A stretch of 64,000 nucleotides of DNA, from positions 1 to 64,000 of the forward strand of contig JAJDBW010000010.1 in the NCBI GenBank assembly GCA_029261155.1, written 5' to 3'. The number at the start of each line of letters is the position of its first letter. Position 1 is the stretch's first letter. Shown one piece after another: positions 2,065 through 6,444 of this stretch. Source of the stretch: Nitrospirota bacterium (GTDB lineage Bacteria; Nitrospirota; Nitrospiria; SBBL01; JAADHI01). Under the pieces are notes generated by a model. That model ran no database searches, was not told the DNA's origin, and saw nothing but the letters and a program-made list of their open reading frames with translations. A program made the translations under genes and the position numbers.

Positions 2065-2078
2065 GCGTCTTAAGACGC
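2065..2078. repeat. 14-bp perfect palindrome over the higA stop codon
   Basis: GCGTCTTAAGACGC reads the same on both strands and contains the TAA stop of the antitoxin gene. It may serve as a small transcription or RNA-stability signal at the convergent end, or may be chance. Confidence 0.35.
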
Positions 2079-2381
2079 TTTGAGACGAAAGGGCCGGATG
2101 GTTTCTAATGCATCGGCCTCGGTCTGGCTTGCTTTGCATAAATCCCAATGAAGCTGAAGATTCATCCAGAAGTCTCCGGGTATGCCAAAAAATTTTGCGA
2201 GTCTTACGGCCGTCGCAGGGGTGATTCCGCGCCGCTGATTCACAATCTCATTAATCTGCTGGTAAGGCACATGGATCTCATTTGAGAGCTGCCTCTGAGT
2301 AATCCCCATCGGAATTAAGAACTCTTCAAGAAGCATTTCACCGGGATGGGTGGGTGTCCTATTTGTCGATATTCGAACCAT
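2070..2381 (-). CDS. higA: HigA/VapI-family XRE antitoxin, no cognate toxin adjacent
   Basis: This is a 103-residue DNA-binding antitoxin. THPGEMLLEEFLIPMGITQ opens the HigA-type helix-turn-helix, followed by LSNEIHVPYQQINEIVNQ and the RLAKFFGIPGDFWMNLQ signature shared by HigA and VapI. Such proteins normally neutralise the mRNA interferase HigB and repress their own operon. No higB is present here: the gene immediately upstream on the same strand is hicB, 39 bases away, so this is either an orphan regulator or the third gene of a hicA-hicB-higA transcript. The start at 2381 follows the family's usual N-terminus closely. Confidence 0.88.
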   Translation of the reverse strand: MVRISTNRTPTHPGEMLLEEFLIPMGITQRQLSNEIHVPYQQINEIVNQRRGITPATAVRLAKFFGIPGDFWMNLQLHWDLCKASQTEADALETIRPFRLKAS

Positions 2382-2420
2382 TCATGACTCCAGGCAAAAC
2401 AAATCCGATTGAGGCAGAAT

Positions 2421-2744
2421 CTATGTGAGTTTACTGGAAACGTAGCGGTTTAAACTGATGCCTTGTTCTGCTGCCTCTGTCGCGATGTGTCGGTGTTGTT
2501 CTGGCGGAATACGCACCATAAATTTTCCGCTATAGTCCTTTTCTGCGATCGGCTCCGGAATGATTTCGTCGTTCGTCGCCATATCCTTTACAACTTCTTT
2601 TACAAGTTCGAGCATGTTTTTAAGTGCGTCCGCCGGTGCTTCCGCTAGGGTAGAGAGACTGGGGAACTCTGCACAGAGTGCGACATATTCCCCGTCCTCT
2701 TCTGACCAAGTAACGCGGTATGTGTAATGTTTATAATTAACCAT
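2421..2744 (-). CDS. hicB: HicB-type antitoxin
   Basis: This is a 107-residue antitoxin. The N-terminal half (YTYRVTWSEEDGEYVALC, then EFPSLSTLAEAPADALKN) is the partial RNase-H fold that HicB uses to cover HicA. The C-terminal half (MVRIPPEQHRHIATEAA followed by GISLNRYVSSKL) is a ribbon-helix-helix DNA-binding domain. I chose ATG 2744, which overlaps the hicA stop by eight bases and has a GAGGATGAGGA purine-rich site upstream, over a longer reading starting at 2813 that lies inside hicA. The coupling suggests translation is linked to the toxin. The pair is probably autoregulated through the palindrome in the hicA promoter. Confidence 0.9.
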   Translation of the reverse strand: MVNYKHYTYRVTWSEEDGEYVALCAEFPSLSTLAEAPADALKNMLELVKEVVKDMATNDEIIPEPIAEKDYSGKFMVRIPPEQHRHIATEAAEQGISLNRYVSSKLT

Positions 2745-2994
2745 TGTCCTCATCCTCCATTCTGCGAATTGCAGCCAATACTTGCCTGACTTGGTAAGGC
2801 TTGGCCTTCCCATCCTTACTCTTTTGGATATTTACGCGGGGGTCGCCCTGCCACGGTGTTTTGTAAACATGGTGGCTCGTGCCCTTGTTGCGTGGTTCTC
2901 CAAAATAATGAGCACATAGCTTGGCGAGGTCGGCAAACTTCACGTTTTTAGGGTTCTCTGCAATCTCTTTGAGTTGTTTGTCGGTCTTACGCAT
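2737..2994 (-). CDS. hicA: HicA-type mRNA interferase toxin
   Basis: This is an 85-residue toxin with a double-stranded RNA-binding-like fold that cleaves mRNA without help from the ribosome. The core GTSHHVY at about residues 58-64 contains the family's catalytic histidine region, followed by the basic strand RVNIQKSKDGKAKPYQVRQV typical of the longer HicA subgroup. It is the first gene of the cluster, as usual for hicAB, and its start codon lies just downstream of a near-consensus sigma-70 promoter. Intact features suggest an active system, but toxicity is not demonstrable from sequence. Confidence 0.88.
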   Translation of the reverse strand: MRKTDKQLKEIAENPKNVKFADLAKLCAHYFGEPRNKGTSHHVYKTPWQGDPRVNIQKSKDGKAKPYQVRQVLAAIRRMEDEDNG

Positions 2995-3000
2995 AGAGCT

Positions 3001-3029
3001 ATTATAGTACCAATATTGATACTATGCAA
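3001..3029 (-). promoter_or_regulatory. hicA promoter embedded in a 20-bp operator-like palindrome
   Basis: On the minus strand TTGCAT (3024-3029) and TATAAT (3001-3006) are separated by exactly 17 bases, a near-perfect sigma-70 promoter seven bases before the hicA ATG. The whole spacer is a near-palindrome, TAGTACCAATATTGATACTA (3005-3024), with one mismatched pair. A HicB dimer bound there would block polymerase. The promoter is directly visible; the operator role is inferred. Confidence 0.75.
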
Positions 3030-3036
3030 GCGATAA

Positions 3037-3053
3037 GAGCGACATTGTCGCTC
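3037..3053. repeat. 8-bp inverted repeat GAGCGACA / TGTCGCTC
   Basis: This is a perfect palindromic arm pair around a single base, just upstream of the hicA -35 box. It could be a second operator or a REP-like end associated with the transposase remnant that follows. Confidence 0.4.
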
Positions 3054-3125
3054 ATTAAAAGTATCCGTTAAACTAGGGGAAGTTCAGGTCTTGCAATAAC
3101 ATATTTATTTTTATAATGTGTCGGG

Positions 3126-3182
3126 ATGCCTCGCCCCCTTCGCATTGAGTTCCCGGGAGCCATCTATCACGTCATCGAATAA
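3126..3182 (+). pseudogene. Remnant of a REP-associated tyrosine transposase (RAYT, Y1/IS200-like)
   Basis: An ATG opens 18 residues, MPRPLRIEFPGAIYHVIE, followed by TAA and TAG. This matches the highly conserved N-terminus of RAYT transposases (M-R-PLRIE-PGA-YHV). The normal continuation SRGN is replaced by the two stops, and no HUH motif or catalytic tyrosine is present downstream, so this is a dead fragment of a once-larger gene. Confidence 0.72.
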
Positions 3183-3218
3183 TAGGAACAGATACTGCTT
3201 CTCCATTCTCTGTTTCTC

Positions 3219-3239
3219 TTGGAATTCGATAAATTCCAA
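3219..3239. repeat. 8-bp inverted repeat TTGGAATT / AATTCCAA
   Basis: Perfect arms with a five-base centre, lying just after the transposase remnant. It might be a transposon-associated palindrome or a regulator site; nothing decides between them. Confidence 0.35.
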
Positions 3240-3368
3240 AGTGTAAACTTCCATTAAATATAAGATGTATACGATGCATATCGTATCGATTTTTTTCCTT
3301 TTTGAATAAATTATATTCCGAATATACTCTTTAAATTCAATATTTTATGTATTTTGTTGAAAAAAGGC

Positions 3369-3396
3369 TAAAGTTTTCTTCAGGGGCTGCCGATAA
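3369..3396 (+). promoter_or_regulatory. Sigma-28 (FliA) type flagellar promoter
   Basis: TAAAGTTT at 3369-3376 and GCCGATAA at 3389-3396 match the enterobacterial FliA consensus at every position. The spacing between the two boxes is 12 bases rather than 11. It lies 21 bases before the ATG of the rod-type protein, with an AAGGAG ribosome site between. The only downstream gene on this strand is that protein. Confidence 0.8.
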
Positions 3397-3417
3397 GACA
3401 GGGTAAGGAGAGAAACG

Positions 3418-3762
3418 ATGTTGTCACCCATTACAAGTTCATTATCGGGTATTTCGGCCAGCGTGAAGAAGATTGAAGCCGTTTCCAATAATACGGCCAA
3501 TTTCAGCACGAAGGGTTTTAAGAAAGATACGGTGCTTCAAAGCGAAGGTGGAACGGGTGGGGTGGTTGTGCATATCGAAAAGAACCTCAGTCCCGGTCCG
3601 CAGCTTCCAGAACCCGATGGGTCTTATGTCGAAGGCTCAAATGTCGATTTAGCCGAGGAAAGCGTAAATCAAATCTTGGCCAAAACTGAATTTAAGGCCA
3701 ATCTTGCCGCGCTTAAAGCTGCCGACGAAATGGAACAAAGTATTATCGATCTCTTTGCCTAA
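3418..3762 (+). CDS. Orphan flagellar basal-body rod-type protein (FlgC-like)
   Basis: This is a 114-residue protein with the two ends of axial flagellar proteins. The N-terminal helix ITSSLSGISASVKKIEAVSN then NTANFSTKGFKKD resembles the flg_bb_rod motif (ANxxTxGYK). The C-terminal SNVDLAEESVNQILAKTEFK with AADEMEQSIIDLF is the C-terminal rod domain. Such proteins form coiled-coil D0 structure in the rod, hook or hook-associated parts. It is about the length of a short FlgC/FlgB homologue but stands alone, with no other flagellar gene in the window. The sigma-28 promoter predicts late-class expression together with filament genes, unlike true rod genes, which are normally middle class. The exact role is unknown. 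Confidence 0.82.
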   Translation: MLSPITSSLSGISASVKKIEAVSNNTANFSTKGFKKDTVLQSEGGTGGVVVHIEKNLSPGPQLPEPDGSYVEGSNVDLAEESVNQILAKTEFKANLAALKAADEMEQSIIDLFA

Positions 3763-3789
3763 TCCCATAATCCCGCCTGTTCTTTTTCT

Positions 3790-6444
3790 TTATATCGTCG
3801 ATCGGTAGCCCGCTTCCTTGCTTTCAATTGCGGCTTGCGCGGCGGCCAGTCTTGCGATCGGTACCCGATAGGGAGAACAGCTCACGTAGTTCATTCCCAG
3901 TCGATGACAAAAGGCGATGGAGCTCGGTTCACCGCCGTGTTCGCCGCAGATGCCGATTTTGAGTTTCGCCTTGGTCTTCCTTCCTTTTTCGATTCCAATC
4001 TGCATCAGCGCACCCAAGCCTTCTTGATCGATGGCGACGAAGGGGTCTTGTGGCAGGATGCCTTTTTCGACATACTCGGGTAAAAAAGTTCCGGCATCGT
4101 CGCGCGAAAGGCCAAAGGTCGTCTGCGTGAGGTCGTTTGTCCCGAAGGAAAAGAAGTCGGCTTCCTTGGCGATTTGGTCGGCAAGGAGGGCGGCGCGCGG
4201 CAGCTCGATCATCGTCCCGATGGTATAACTGATTTGGGTCTTGCGTCGATCCATCACCTCCTTCGCCTTGCGGATGCAAAGGGCTTTAAGCTGGGCCAAT
4301 TCGTTGACATGGGCCACGAGGGGAATCATGATTTCCGGTATCACGTCGATCTGTTTTTTGCGCAAACTGCAGGCGGCCTCGATAATGGCTTCGACTTGCA
4401 TTTCGTAGATTTCTGGGAAGCTAATGCCGAGGCGGCAGCCGCGGTGGCCCAACATGGGGTTGAATTCGTGAAGGGAGCGCGTCTTTGCCCGGAGGGTTTC
4501 CACCGGAACCTTCATTTCTTGCGAAAGGTTTTGCAGGTCGGCCTCGGTTTGCGGAAGAAATTCGTGAAGTGGAGGGTCGAGGAGTCGGATCGTGACAGGT
4601 AGGCCCTTCATCTCCTGGAGGATTTTCACAAAATCGCCTTTTTGCATGGGCAGTAATTTCGCCAAGGCCTTCTTCCGGCCTTCAAGCGAAGCGGCTAAGA
4701 TCATCTCTCGGACCGCCTGAATCCGGTCTTCCTCAAAAAACATGTGTTCCGTCCGGCACAGGCCAATCCCTTCTGCGCCGAATTCTCTGGCGACGCGGGC
4801 ATCCCGTTTATTGTCGGCATTGGCGCGTACTTTCAGGCGCCGGATGCCGTCGGCCCAGCCCATTAAGGTTTTAAAGGCCGCGCTCAACTTGGGTTGGATG
4901 AGTTTGACTTCACCTAGGATCACCTCGCCGGTTGAACCGTTGAGGCTGATAAAGTCGCCGCCTTTCACCGTTACCCCTCGGGCCACAAAGGTCTTCGCCG
5001 CCACGTCGATGACGATTTCTCCACAGCCGGCCACGCAACACTTGCCCATGCCCCGCGCCACCACGGCGGCGTGGGACGTCATGCCGCCGCGCGCCGTCAC
5101 GATGCCTTCGGCGGCGTGCATGCCGCCGATGTCGTCGGGCGAGGTTTCGGATCGGACGAGGATGACTTTCTCGTGTCGCTCGGCCATCGCCTCGGCTTCT
5201 TCGGCGGAAAAAACAACCTTGCCGATCGCGGCGCCGGGTGAGGCGGGCAGCCCTTTGGCGATCACGTTGAGTTTTACCTTCGGGTCGATCATCGGATGCA
5301 GCAGCTGGTCGAGTTGTTGGGGGTCAATTCGTAAAATCGCAGTTTTCCGGCTGATGAGTTTTTCTTCAACCATGTCGACCGCAATTTGAATTGCCGCCGC
5401 TGCCGTGCGCTTGCCGACGCGGCTTTGCAGCATGTAGAGCTTGCCTTCTTGAATGGTAAATTCGATGTCGAGCATGTCTTTGTAATGTTTTTCCAGTTTT
5501 TTATAAATGGTGAGCAGAGATTGATAGGCCTTGGGCAAACGTTTTTTCAGGGCCTCGATGGCCAGGGGTGTTCGGATGCCCGCGACCACGTCTTCGCCCT
5601 GGGCGTTGAAGAGGAATTCGCCGAAGAATCGTTTTTTTCCGGTGGAGGGATCGCGTGTAAAGGCCACGCCGGTGCCGGAGGTTTCGCCCATGTTGCCGAA
5701 GACCATGGCCACCACGCTGACGGCCGTGCCCCAATCGTCCGGGATATTGTTTAAGCGCCGATAGGTGTTCGCTCGTTTTCCGTACCATGAATTAAAGACG
5801 GCGTCGATGCCGAGGCGGAGTTGTTCGAAGGGATCTTCCGGAAAGGCCGAGCCTGTTTCCTTCCGCACGATTTTTTTAAATTCTTTCACGAGATCCACAA
5901 GGGCCTCGACGGTGAGGTCCGTATCCAGATAAGCGCCAAGGCTTTGTTTCTTTTGTTCGAGGACCTGCTCGAAGCGTTCCCGATCGATCTTTAAGACCAC
6001 ACTGCCGAACATCGAAACAAAACGCCGGTAGGCGTCGTAGCCGAAACGTTCGTTGTCGGTTTTTTTTATGAGCCCTTGCACGGTTTGATCGTTAAGTCCC
6101 AGATTTAAAACCGTGTCCATCATGCCGGGCATCGAGGCCCGCGCACCGGAGCGCACGGAAACCAGCAAGGGTTCCAGCGGATCGCCGAATTTCAGGCCGA
6201 AGGACTTCTCCACCTTTTTGAGCGCGGCCAAGGCCTCTTGCCACAGCCCTGTCGGGTAGCGTTTGTCGCGTTGATAAAACGCGAGGCAGGCCTCGGTGGT
6301 AATTGTAAAACCCGCCGGTACCGGAATGCCCAAACGCGACATTTCCGCCAGCCCGGCACCCTTGCCGCCCAAGAGGTCTTTCATATCGCCGCGCCCTTCG
6401 GCCTTGCCATCGCCGAAGCTGTAAACGTATTTTTTGCCTTTCAT
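3790..6444 (-). CDS. ppdK: Pyruvate, phosphate dikinase
   Basis: This 884-residue enzyme interconverts pyruvate, ATP and Pi with PEP, AMP and PPi. The N-terminal ATP-grasp domain starts at GGKGAGLAEMSRLGIPVPAG (about 26-45) and contains SVRSGARASMPGMMDT. The swivelling phosphohistidine domain has GGMTSHAAVVARGMGK with catalytic His458. The C-terminal PEP/pyruvate barrel carries GLCRTEHMFF, GHRGCRLGI and FGTNDLTQTTFGLSRDD. The length matches bacterial PPDK. The ATG at 6444 follows TAGGAGAAAATGA, a good ribosome site. In an rTCA autotroph it would make PEP from newly fixed pyruvate for gluconeogenesis and anaplerosis. It appears to be transcribed on its own, after glyS on the same strand. Confidence 0.97.
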   Translation of the reverse strand: MKGKKYVYSFGDGKAEGRGDMKDLLGGKGAGLAEMSRLGIPVPAGFTITTEACLAFYQRDKRYPTGLWQEALAALKKVEKSFGLKFGDPLEPLLVSVRSGARASMPGMMDTVLNLGLNDQTVQGLIKKTDNERFGYDAYRRFVSMFGSVVLKIDRERFEQVLEQKKQSLGAYLDTDLTVEALVDLVKEFKKIVRKETGSAFPEDPFEQLRLGIDAVFNSWYGKRANTYRRLNNIPDDWGTAVSVVAMVFGNMGETSGTGVAFTRDPSTGKKRFFGEFLFNAQGEDVVAGIRTPLAIEALKKRLPKAYQSLLTIYKKLEKHYKDMLDIEFTIQEGKLYMLQSRVGKRTAAAAIQIAVDMVEEKLISRKTAILRIDPQQLDQLLHPMIDPKVKLNVIAKGLPASPGAAIGKVVFSAEEAEAMAERHEKVILVRSETSPDDIGGMHAAEGIVTARGGMTSHAAVVARGMGKCCVAGCGEIVIDVAAKTFVARGVTVKGGDFISLNGSTGEVILGEVKLIQPKLSAAFKTLMGWADGIRRLKVRANADNKRDARVAREFGAEGIGLCRTEHMFFEEDRIQAVREMILAASLEGRKKALAKLLPMQKGDFVKILQEMKGLPVTIRLLDPPLHEFLPQTEADLQNLSQEMKVPVETLRAKTRSLHEFNPMLGHRGCRLGISFPEIYEMQVEAIIEAACSLRKKQIDVIPEIMIPLVAHVNELAQLKALCIRKAKEVMDRRKTQISYTIGTMIELPRAALLADQIAKEADFFSFGTNDLTQTTFGLSRDDAGTFLPEYVEKGILPQDPFVAIDQEGLGALMQIGIEKGRKTKAKLKIGICGEHGGEPSSIAFCHRLGMNYVSCSPYRVPIARLAAAQAAIESKEAGYRSTI

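Follow-up and report, generated by a model that had tools for sequence, protein, structure and literature searches.

A core-only protein of the flagellar axial family behind a putative sigma-28 promoter in a Nitrospirota bacterium

It is customary to regard the rod, hook and junction subunits of the flagellum as a complete set. A gate recognition motif docks early rod and hook subunits at FlhB (PMC8983047), and in Actinobacteria, FlgB and FlgC are reported to consist of D0 plus Dc only (PMC10746217). Campylobacter FlaC, a flagellin, is reported to be secreted and to play no part in motility (PMC4863622). In the open-licence literature that was searched, we found no paper on the protein family described here; the one 'FlgC-like' match was set aside, as it concerns LfgC from Flag-2 in E. 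coli, a protein that is not a member of this family. What is new here is an axial family of its own, reduced to the core and with a late-type promoter, the parts of which were already known.

The candidate transcription unit (Table 1) lies within the window, by which we mean the whole stretch of 64,000 nucleotides that was analysed. Taken together, the two half-sites agree with the FliA consensus at 16 of 16 positions over a spacer of 12, and the ATG of P0001 at position 3418 follows 21 nt past the -10 half-site. The original observation of a lone 114-residue gene downstream of this promoter seems to be borne out, since the next gene, encoding a pyruvate phosphate dikinase (3790-6444), is on the opposite strand. 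In a consensus scan of positions 3000-4000, two terminator-like hairpins were found against 1.2 in shuffles, and no sigma-70-like site was found against 1.9 in shuffles. With a hairpin on its 5' side, no sigma-70-like site and an opposite-strand neighbour, the P0001 gene appears to be solitary. Within the window, two sites come within three mismatches of the promoter versus 0.54 expected, a count that 11 of 100 shuffles also reach. Directly 5' of the unit, on the - strand (window 2070-2994), are an HTH ORF, a HicB-family ORF and a small HicA-reminiscent ORF without a Pfam match, and these genes look toxin-antitoxin-like.

Table 1. Features of the candidate promoter and its transcription unit, in window coordinates
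Feature	Coordinates	Strand	Evidence
Terminator-like hairpin with trailing T run, 5' of the unit	3272..3288	+	Consensus scan; weak alone
-35 half-site TAAAGTTT, FliA (sigma-28) type	3369..3376	+	8/8 consensus positions; conserved 5' of many relatives
-10 half-site GCCGATAA	3389..3396	+	8/8 consensus positions; 12-base spacer
Ribosome-binding site AAGGAG	3405..3410	+	Read from sequence
ORF P0001, 114-aa core-only flagellar axial-family protein	3418..3762	+	Pfam, fold, tree, codon-position bias

Both Pfam models and the predicted D0-type core fold make P0001 a member of the axial superfamily. It scores 44 bits on Flg_bbr_C (cut-off 23) and barely passes Flg_bb_rod (20.8 bits, cut-off 20.7). Of the 25 NCBIfam models listed, it reaches the cut-off of none; its highest scores there are up to 52 bits with FlgE models and 46 bits with the FlgEFG subfamily. 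The AlphaFold2 model, made with 56 family sequences (pLDDT 80.4, pTM 0.66), has a helix at residues 4-27, short beta strands and a helix at residues 78-113. As modelled, P0001 is the shared axial core without outer domains, comprising two terminal helices and a short beta domain. The top Foldseek match is a Salmonella proximal rod chain (E 3.7e-8; TM 0.90 by query, 0.80 by target), and the chain 7bin_V, named FlgC, is matched at E 1.1e-5 (TM 0.88 by query, 0.76 by target). A structure comparison against the rod proteins, as had been suggested, thus returned a rod-type fold with the proximal rod on top, but hook and junction chains match alike: VIA Z ranges from 12.2 to 14.0 across ranks 1-16, in which rod, hook and junction chains are mixed. 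Because entries of all three kinds rank alike by VIA, the fold singles out no one subunit. Furthermore, P0001 and its relative L014 differ at 30, 16 and 69 first, second and third codon positions, respectively (pN 0.208, pS 0.763), a bias that points to purifying selection.

In the own assembly (3,562,211 bases in 90 contigs), the perfect promoter pattern with spacers of 10-13 occurs once and the reversed-pattern control not at all, so that the half-sites, which were claimed to fit the FliA consensus at every position, form the single perfect site of the genome. When up to three mismatches are allowed, 40 sites with a spacer of 12 are found versus 65 in the control, and 69 with a spacer of 11 versus 70; the relaxed motif shows no bulk enrichment and proves nothing by itself. 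The match was to count as a coincidence if the genome had no fliA or flagellar export genes, but fliA (245.9 bits, cut-off 189.6) and flhA are both present, and the genome encodes its own FlgB, FlgC, FlgE, FlgF, FlgG and FlgK. The search for flgM and other genes with this promoter was likewise productive. Candidate sites were found before a flagellin gene (15/16, spacer 11), before the gene of a 69-aa DVU0524-like protein (14/16, spacer 12), before flgM followed by a flgN-like ORF and then flgK (13/16), and before cheA adjoining fliA (13/16). The 69-aa protein matches the DVU0524 FlgM-associated family weakly (E 0.0064, below cut-off), and flgM, flgN, flgK and cheA are named from sequence and gene order. 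These four flagellar sites were chosen by reading the neighbouring ORFs among 60 sites read, most of which lie inside long open frames. Elsewhere in the genome, a gene for a 330-aa protein of no Pfam family (C22:37784-38774; L252, L046) starts 54 nt past a 14/16 FliA-like site with a spacer of 12 and half-sites TTAAGTTT/TCCGATAA, and is a second candidate orphan late gene.

An alignment search yielded at least 240 relatives of P0001, of which 80, from named genome contigs, were kept; 76 of these loci were used for the upstream and neighbour work, the other four (L113, L145, L156 and L172) being omitted for having fewer than 190 bases upstream. Taking the best match in 250 nt, and counting near-identical Nitrospira genes separately, a promoter of at least 13/16 precedes 34 of the 76 family members, compared to 11 of 459 other ORFs at the same loci and none of the 76 reversed upstreams. 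Among the nine distinct nearest genes, at 58% identity or more (that of the window, L014-L017, L102, L103, L105 and L106), eight carry the site, with the start codon 18-24 nt further on in each; the exception is L015, which is on the same contig as L104. The spacer is 12 in five of these eight and 11 in three. The one extra spacer base that had been remarked upon is therefore real, the spacer here being 12, and it is no objection to the site, as orthologues use both lengths. The Candidatus Manganitrophus locus (L106) scores 15/16, and matches of 15 or 16/16 recur further off, at L162, L165 and L167, whose labels read Deltaproteobacteria or Desulfobacteraceae, as well as at L018 and L112 of a Nitrospirota genome that lies outside the class. 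The remaining 42 of the 76 upstreams score below 13. Low scores are found in flagellated Nitrospira (G009 and G236, both 9) and in the cultured carriers Desulfobulbus alkaliphilus (10) and Acidovorax facilis (9). Since the site is conserved in relatives, the promoter is more than chance, and this conservation implies that P0001 would be transcribed by FliA (sigma-28).

One relative (G290) holds a second family copy with 59% identity to the window protein (G290:C41:18867-19181), its first copy being without a promoter match. At L120, a chemoreceptor-like neighbour (+1851 from the small gene) has a FliA-like site of 13-14/16, and the upstream genes at L119, L130 and L135, HD-GYP-type as far as they can be read, have FliA-like sites of 13-14/16 as well. 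Some family neighbourhoods may as such be co-regulated by FliA-like sites.

On balance, P0001 is probably, if not firmly so, a FliA-transcribed, late accessory protein that is axial or exported; the FliA dependence of its transcription, its export and its final place are what we infer. Upon completion of the hook, FlgM would leave the cell and FliA would be freed, which would then read the P0001 gene alongside flagellin and flgM, and hence late. The protein would be exported as a late substrate after the specificity switch, and would then either be built in at the hook-filament end, as a minor subunit of the core, or be shed. Its terminal helices would be of the kind that packs in the rod, hook and junction lattice (D0).

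The gate recognition motif has the form FxxxPhi, and was sought in the stretch after NxAN. P0001 carries an ANNxAN-type segment and no FxxxPhi, which follows NxAN in only 4 of 56 family members. Of the six own axial proteins, FlgB, FlgE, FlgF and FlgG have the motif, and FlgK and the early subunit FlgC do not. Its rarity in the family agrees with late export, yet early FlgC is also without it, so the motif is not decisive.

How dispensable the gene is can be read from its distribution. Relatives of P0001 occur in 57 of the 295 genomes of the phylum (E 1e-6), and a first collection scan with P0001 as single query gave no match. The matches listed include Candidatus Manganitrophaceae, Nitrospira, Desulfobulbus, Desulfocapsa, Geobacteraceae and Acidovorax, as well as bins labelled Nitrospinota and Latescibacterota, the closest named relative among them being a Manganitrophaceae bin (68%). 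Weak matches (29-30% identity) are located on four Azospirillum plasmids. Among 269 Nitrospiria genomes, incomplete bins included, the family gene (E 1e-15) is found in 122 and FlhA (E 1e-30) in 182; both are found in 113, the family gene alone in 9, FlhA alone in 69 and neither in 78. Counted as raw genomes, uncorrected for relatedness, FlhA is thus present in 113 of 122 carriers versus 182 of all 269. A genome of the same genus as that of the window (G139) has FlgC and FlhA and gives no family gene match at E 1e-15. The P0001 gene is accessory, and because G139 and 69 of the 182 FlhA-bearing genomes show no copy, its product is not a needed structural part.

Overlapping with the preferred reading is the possibility that P0001 is made late, passes out through the flagellum and is shed into the medium unassembled, like Campylobacter FlaC. 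The late-type promoter, an axial core without outer domains and the accessory distribution would all suit such a protein, and FlaC, for which secretion and no motility role are reported (PMC4863622), is a precedent. FlaC is however a flagellin rather than a rod/hook-type protein, and we regard shedding without assembly as possible but unlikely.

Somewhat less likely still is a non-flagellar role, in which the axial core has been recruited for another purpose (e.g. secreted, self-assembling or regulatory) while still being wired to FliA in many lineages. This is suggested by four Nitrospiria from three genera, G077, G125 and G351 (each at 99% completeness) and G341 (87%), in which a search limited to FlhA and Flg_bbr_C proteins found an intact family gene as the only Flg_bbr_C protein and no FlhA. 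Their upstream scores are 9-10, without a promoter match, as are those of several flagellated relatives. Four other carriers without FlhA (G388, G390, G398 and G429) have further Flg_bbr_C proteins, so that their lack of FlhA probably reflects a gap in the assembly. The family gene of G351, compared pairwise with those of flagellated relatives, has a pN of 0.039 against a pS of 0.631, which would fit a role kept without a flagellum; the pairs cannot date the loss, nor separate selection before it from selection after it, and the low ratio may date from before the flagellum was lost. Moreover, the association with FlhA described above argues against independence from the flagellum, and a partial family match in G105, which has neither FlhA nor any Flg_bbr_C protein, suggests that gene loss may follow flagellum loss. 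Even so, because several Nitrospiria without FlhA or another Flg_bbr_C protein keep the gene intact, a stand-alone role is possible, and we hold out a modest chance that the family is a further core-only late axial class whose role is no longer bound to the flagellum, its members acting on their own as exported, assembling or regulatory proteins.

A non-flagellar role is also in keeping with the neighbouring genes. In a blastp comparison (E 1e-10) against the ORFs of nine flagellar-gene stretches of the window's genome, the 722 neighbouring ORFs in the 76 loci, family gene aside, gave no flagellar match save three to a sigma-54 activator. At 34 of the 76 loci, all of Nitrospira type and found among L108-L155 and L168, the small gene is followed on its own strand by one for a radical-SAM protein of about 724 aa, with about 1.5 kb separating the two at L114, L117 and L146. 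At L155, in one metagenome bin, the small axial protein and the radical-SAM protein are fused in frame, a fusion that apparently arose by deletion, and an 805-aa frame of G349 (C161) may be another such fusion. The enzyme is present in 195 of the 269 genomes of the class, many of them without the small gene, and nothing matched it in the genome of the window or elsewhere in that family. A modification operon comprising the radical-SAM enzyme and the small gene was rejected on these grounds as an explanation of this gene.

Could P0001 then be a true proximal-rod subunit, taking the place of FlgC or sitting beside it as a second one? Its length and fold are near those of FlgC, and to this extent the original description as FlgC-like stands. 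The curated FlgC model (TIGR01395) does not agree, giving 38.1 bits versus a cut-off of 102.1, and neither does the tree, which was built from 67 core segments over 86 columns: 29 of the 56 family rows (a motif filter removed one of the 30 first selected) and 38 rows of other axial proteins, with FlgL outside it. The 29 family rows group together (support 92/93, in 92% of 200 bootstrap trees) and sit outside FlgB, FlgC, FlgE, FlgF, FlgG and FlgK, while FlgC, with 20 rows, is a 100/100 group of its own to which the P0001 family does not belong. This apparent separateness is limited by few columns, by row labels of our own making, assigned by length and sequence (L230, called E, resembles FlgK, and the long L175 and L177 are unsure), and by two long branches, and the order near FlgE, FlgF and FlgG is unsettled. 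Contig C58 has the order FlgB-FlgC-FliE-FliF with another gene as FlgC, and a late promoter would yield its product only after rod assembly. With the model score, the tree and a normal flgBC-fliE elsewhere in the genome against it, we set a second FlgC aside as very improbable.

That the promoter is coincidental and the gene a decaying duplicate, as the lack of motif enrichment in the relaxed scans and the 42 of 76 relatives below 13/16 might suggest, is the least credible reading of all and was discarded, since the site is kept at a short distance from the start in the nearest orthologues with low controls, substitutions relative to L014 fall mainly at the third codon position, and the family is found in several phyla.

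If P0001 is the late accessory protein that we favour, the list of axial proteins would gain either a component or a new flagellum-exported class, in the form of a separate family that is reduced to the lattice core, has a late-type promoter and is present in several phyla. That this family survives in Nitrospiria in which no flagellum is detectable would furthermore show what an axial core can do alone.

Compared with the described subunits, P0001 shares with FlgC its fold over the full length, a core-only architecture and a similar size, whereas it has its own group in the tree, a score far under the FlgC cut-off, and a lone gene with a late-type promoter where FlgC is encoded in flgBC-fliE. 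With FlgE, FlgF and FlgG it has in common its best sub-cut-off NCBIfam scores and an N.AN..T.GFK segment; it differs from these in being 114 aa without outer domains, theirs here being about 250-430 aa, in having no FxxxPhi motif, and again in its own tree group. FlgK is likewise without FxxxPhi, and a 13/16 candidate late site precedes flgM/flgN-like/flgK, but P0001 is far shorter than FlgK and FlgL, has no outer domains, is encoded outside the flgK operon and is not grouped with FlgK. Finally, Campylobacter FlaC differs from P0001 in being a flagellin that is reported to be secreted, and resembles it as an accessory axial-type protein, one that is reported to be dispensable for motility (PMC4863622).
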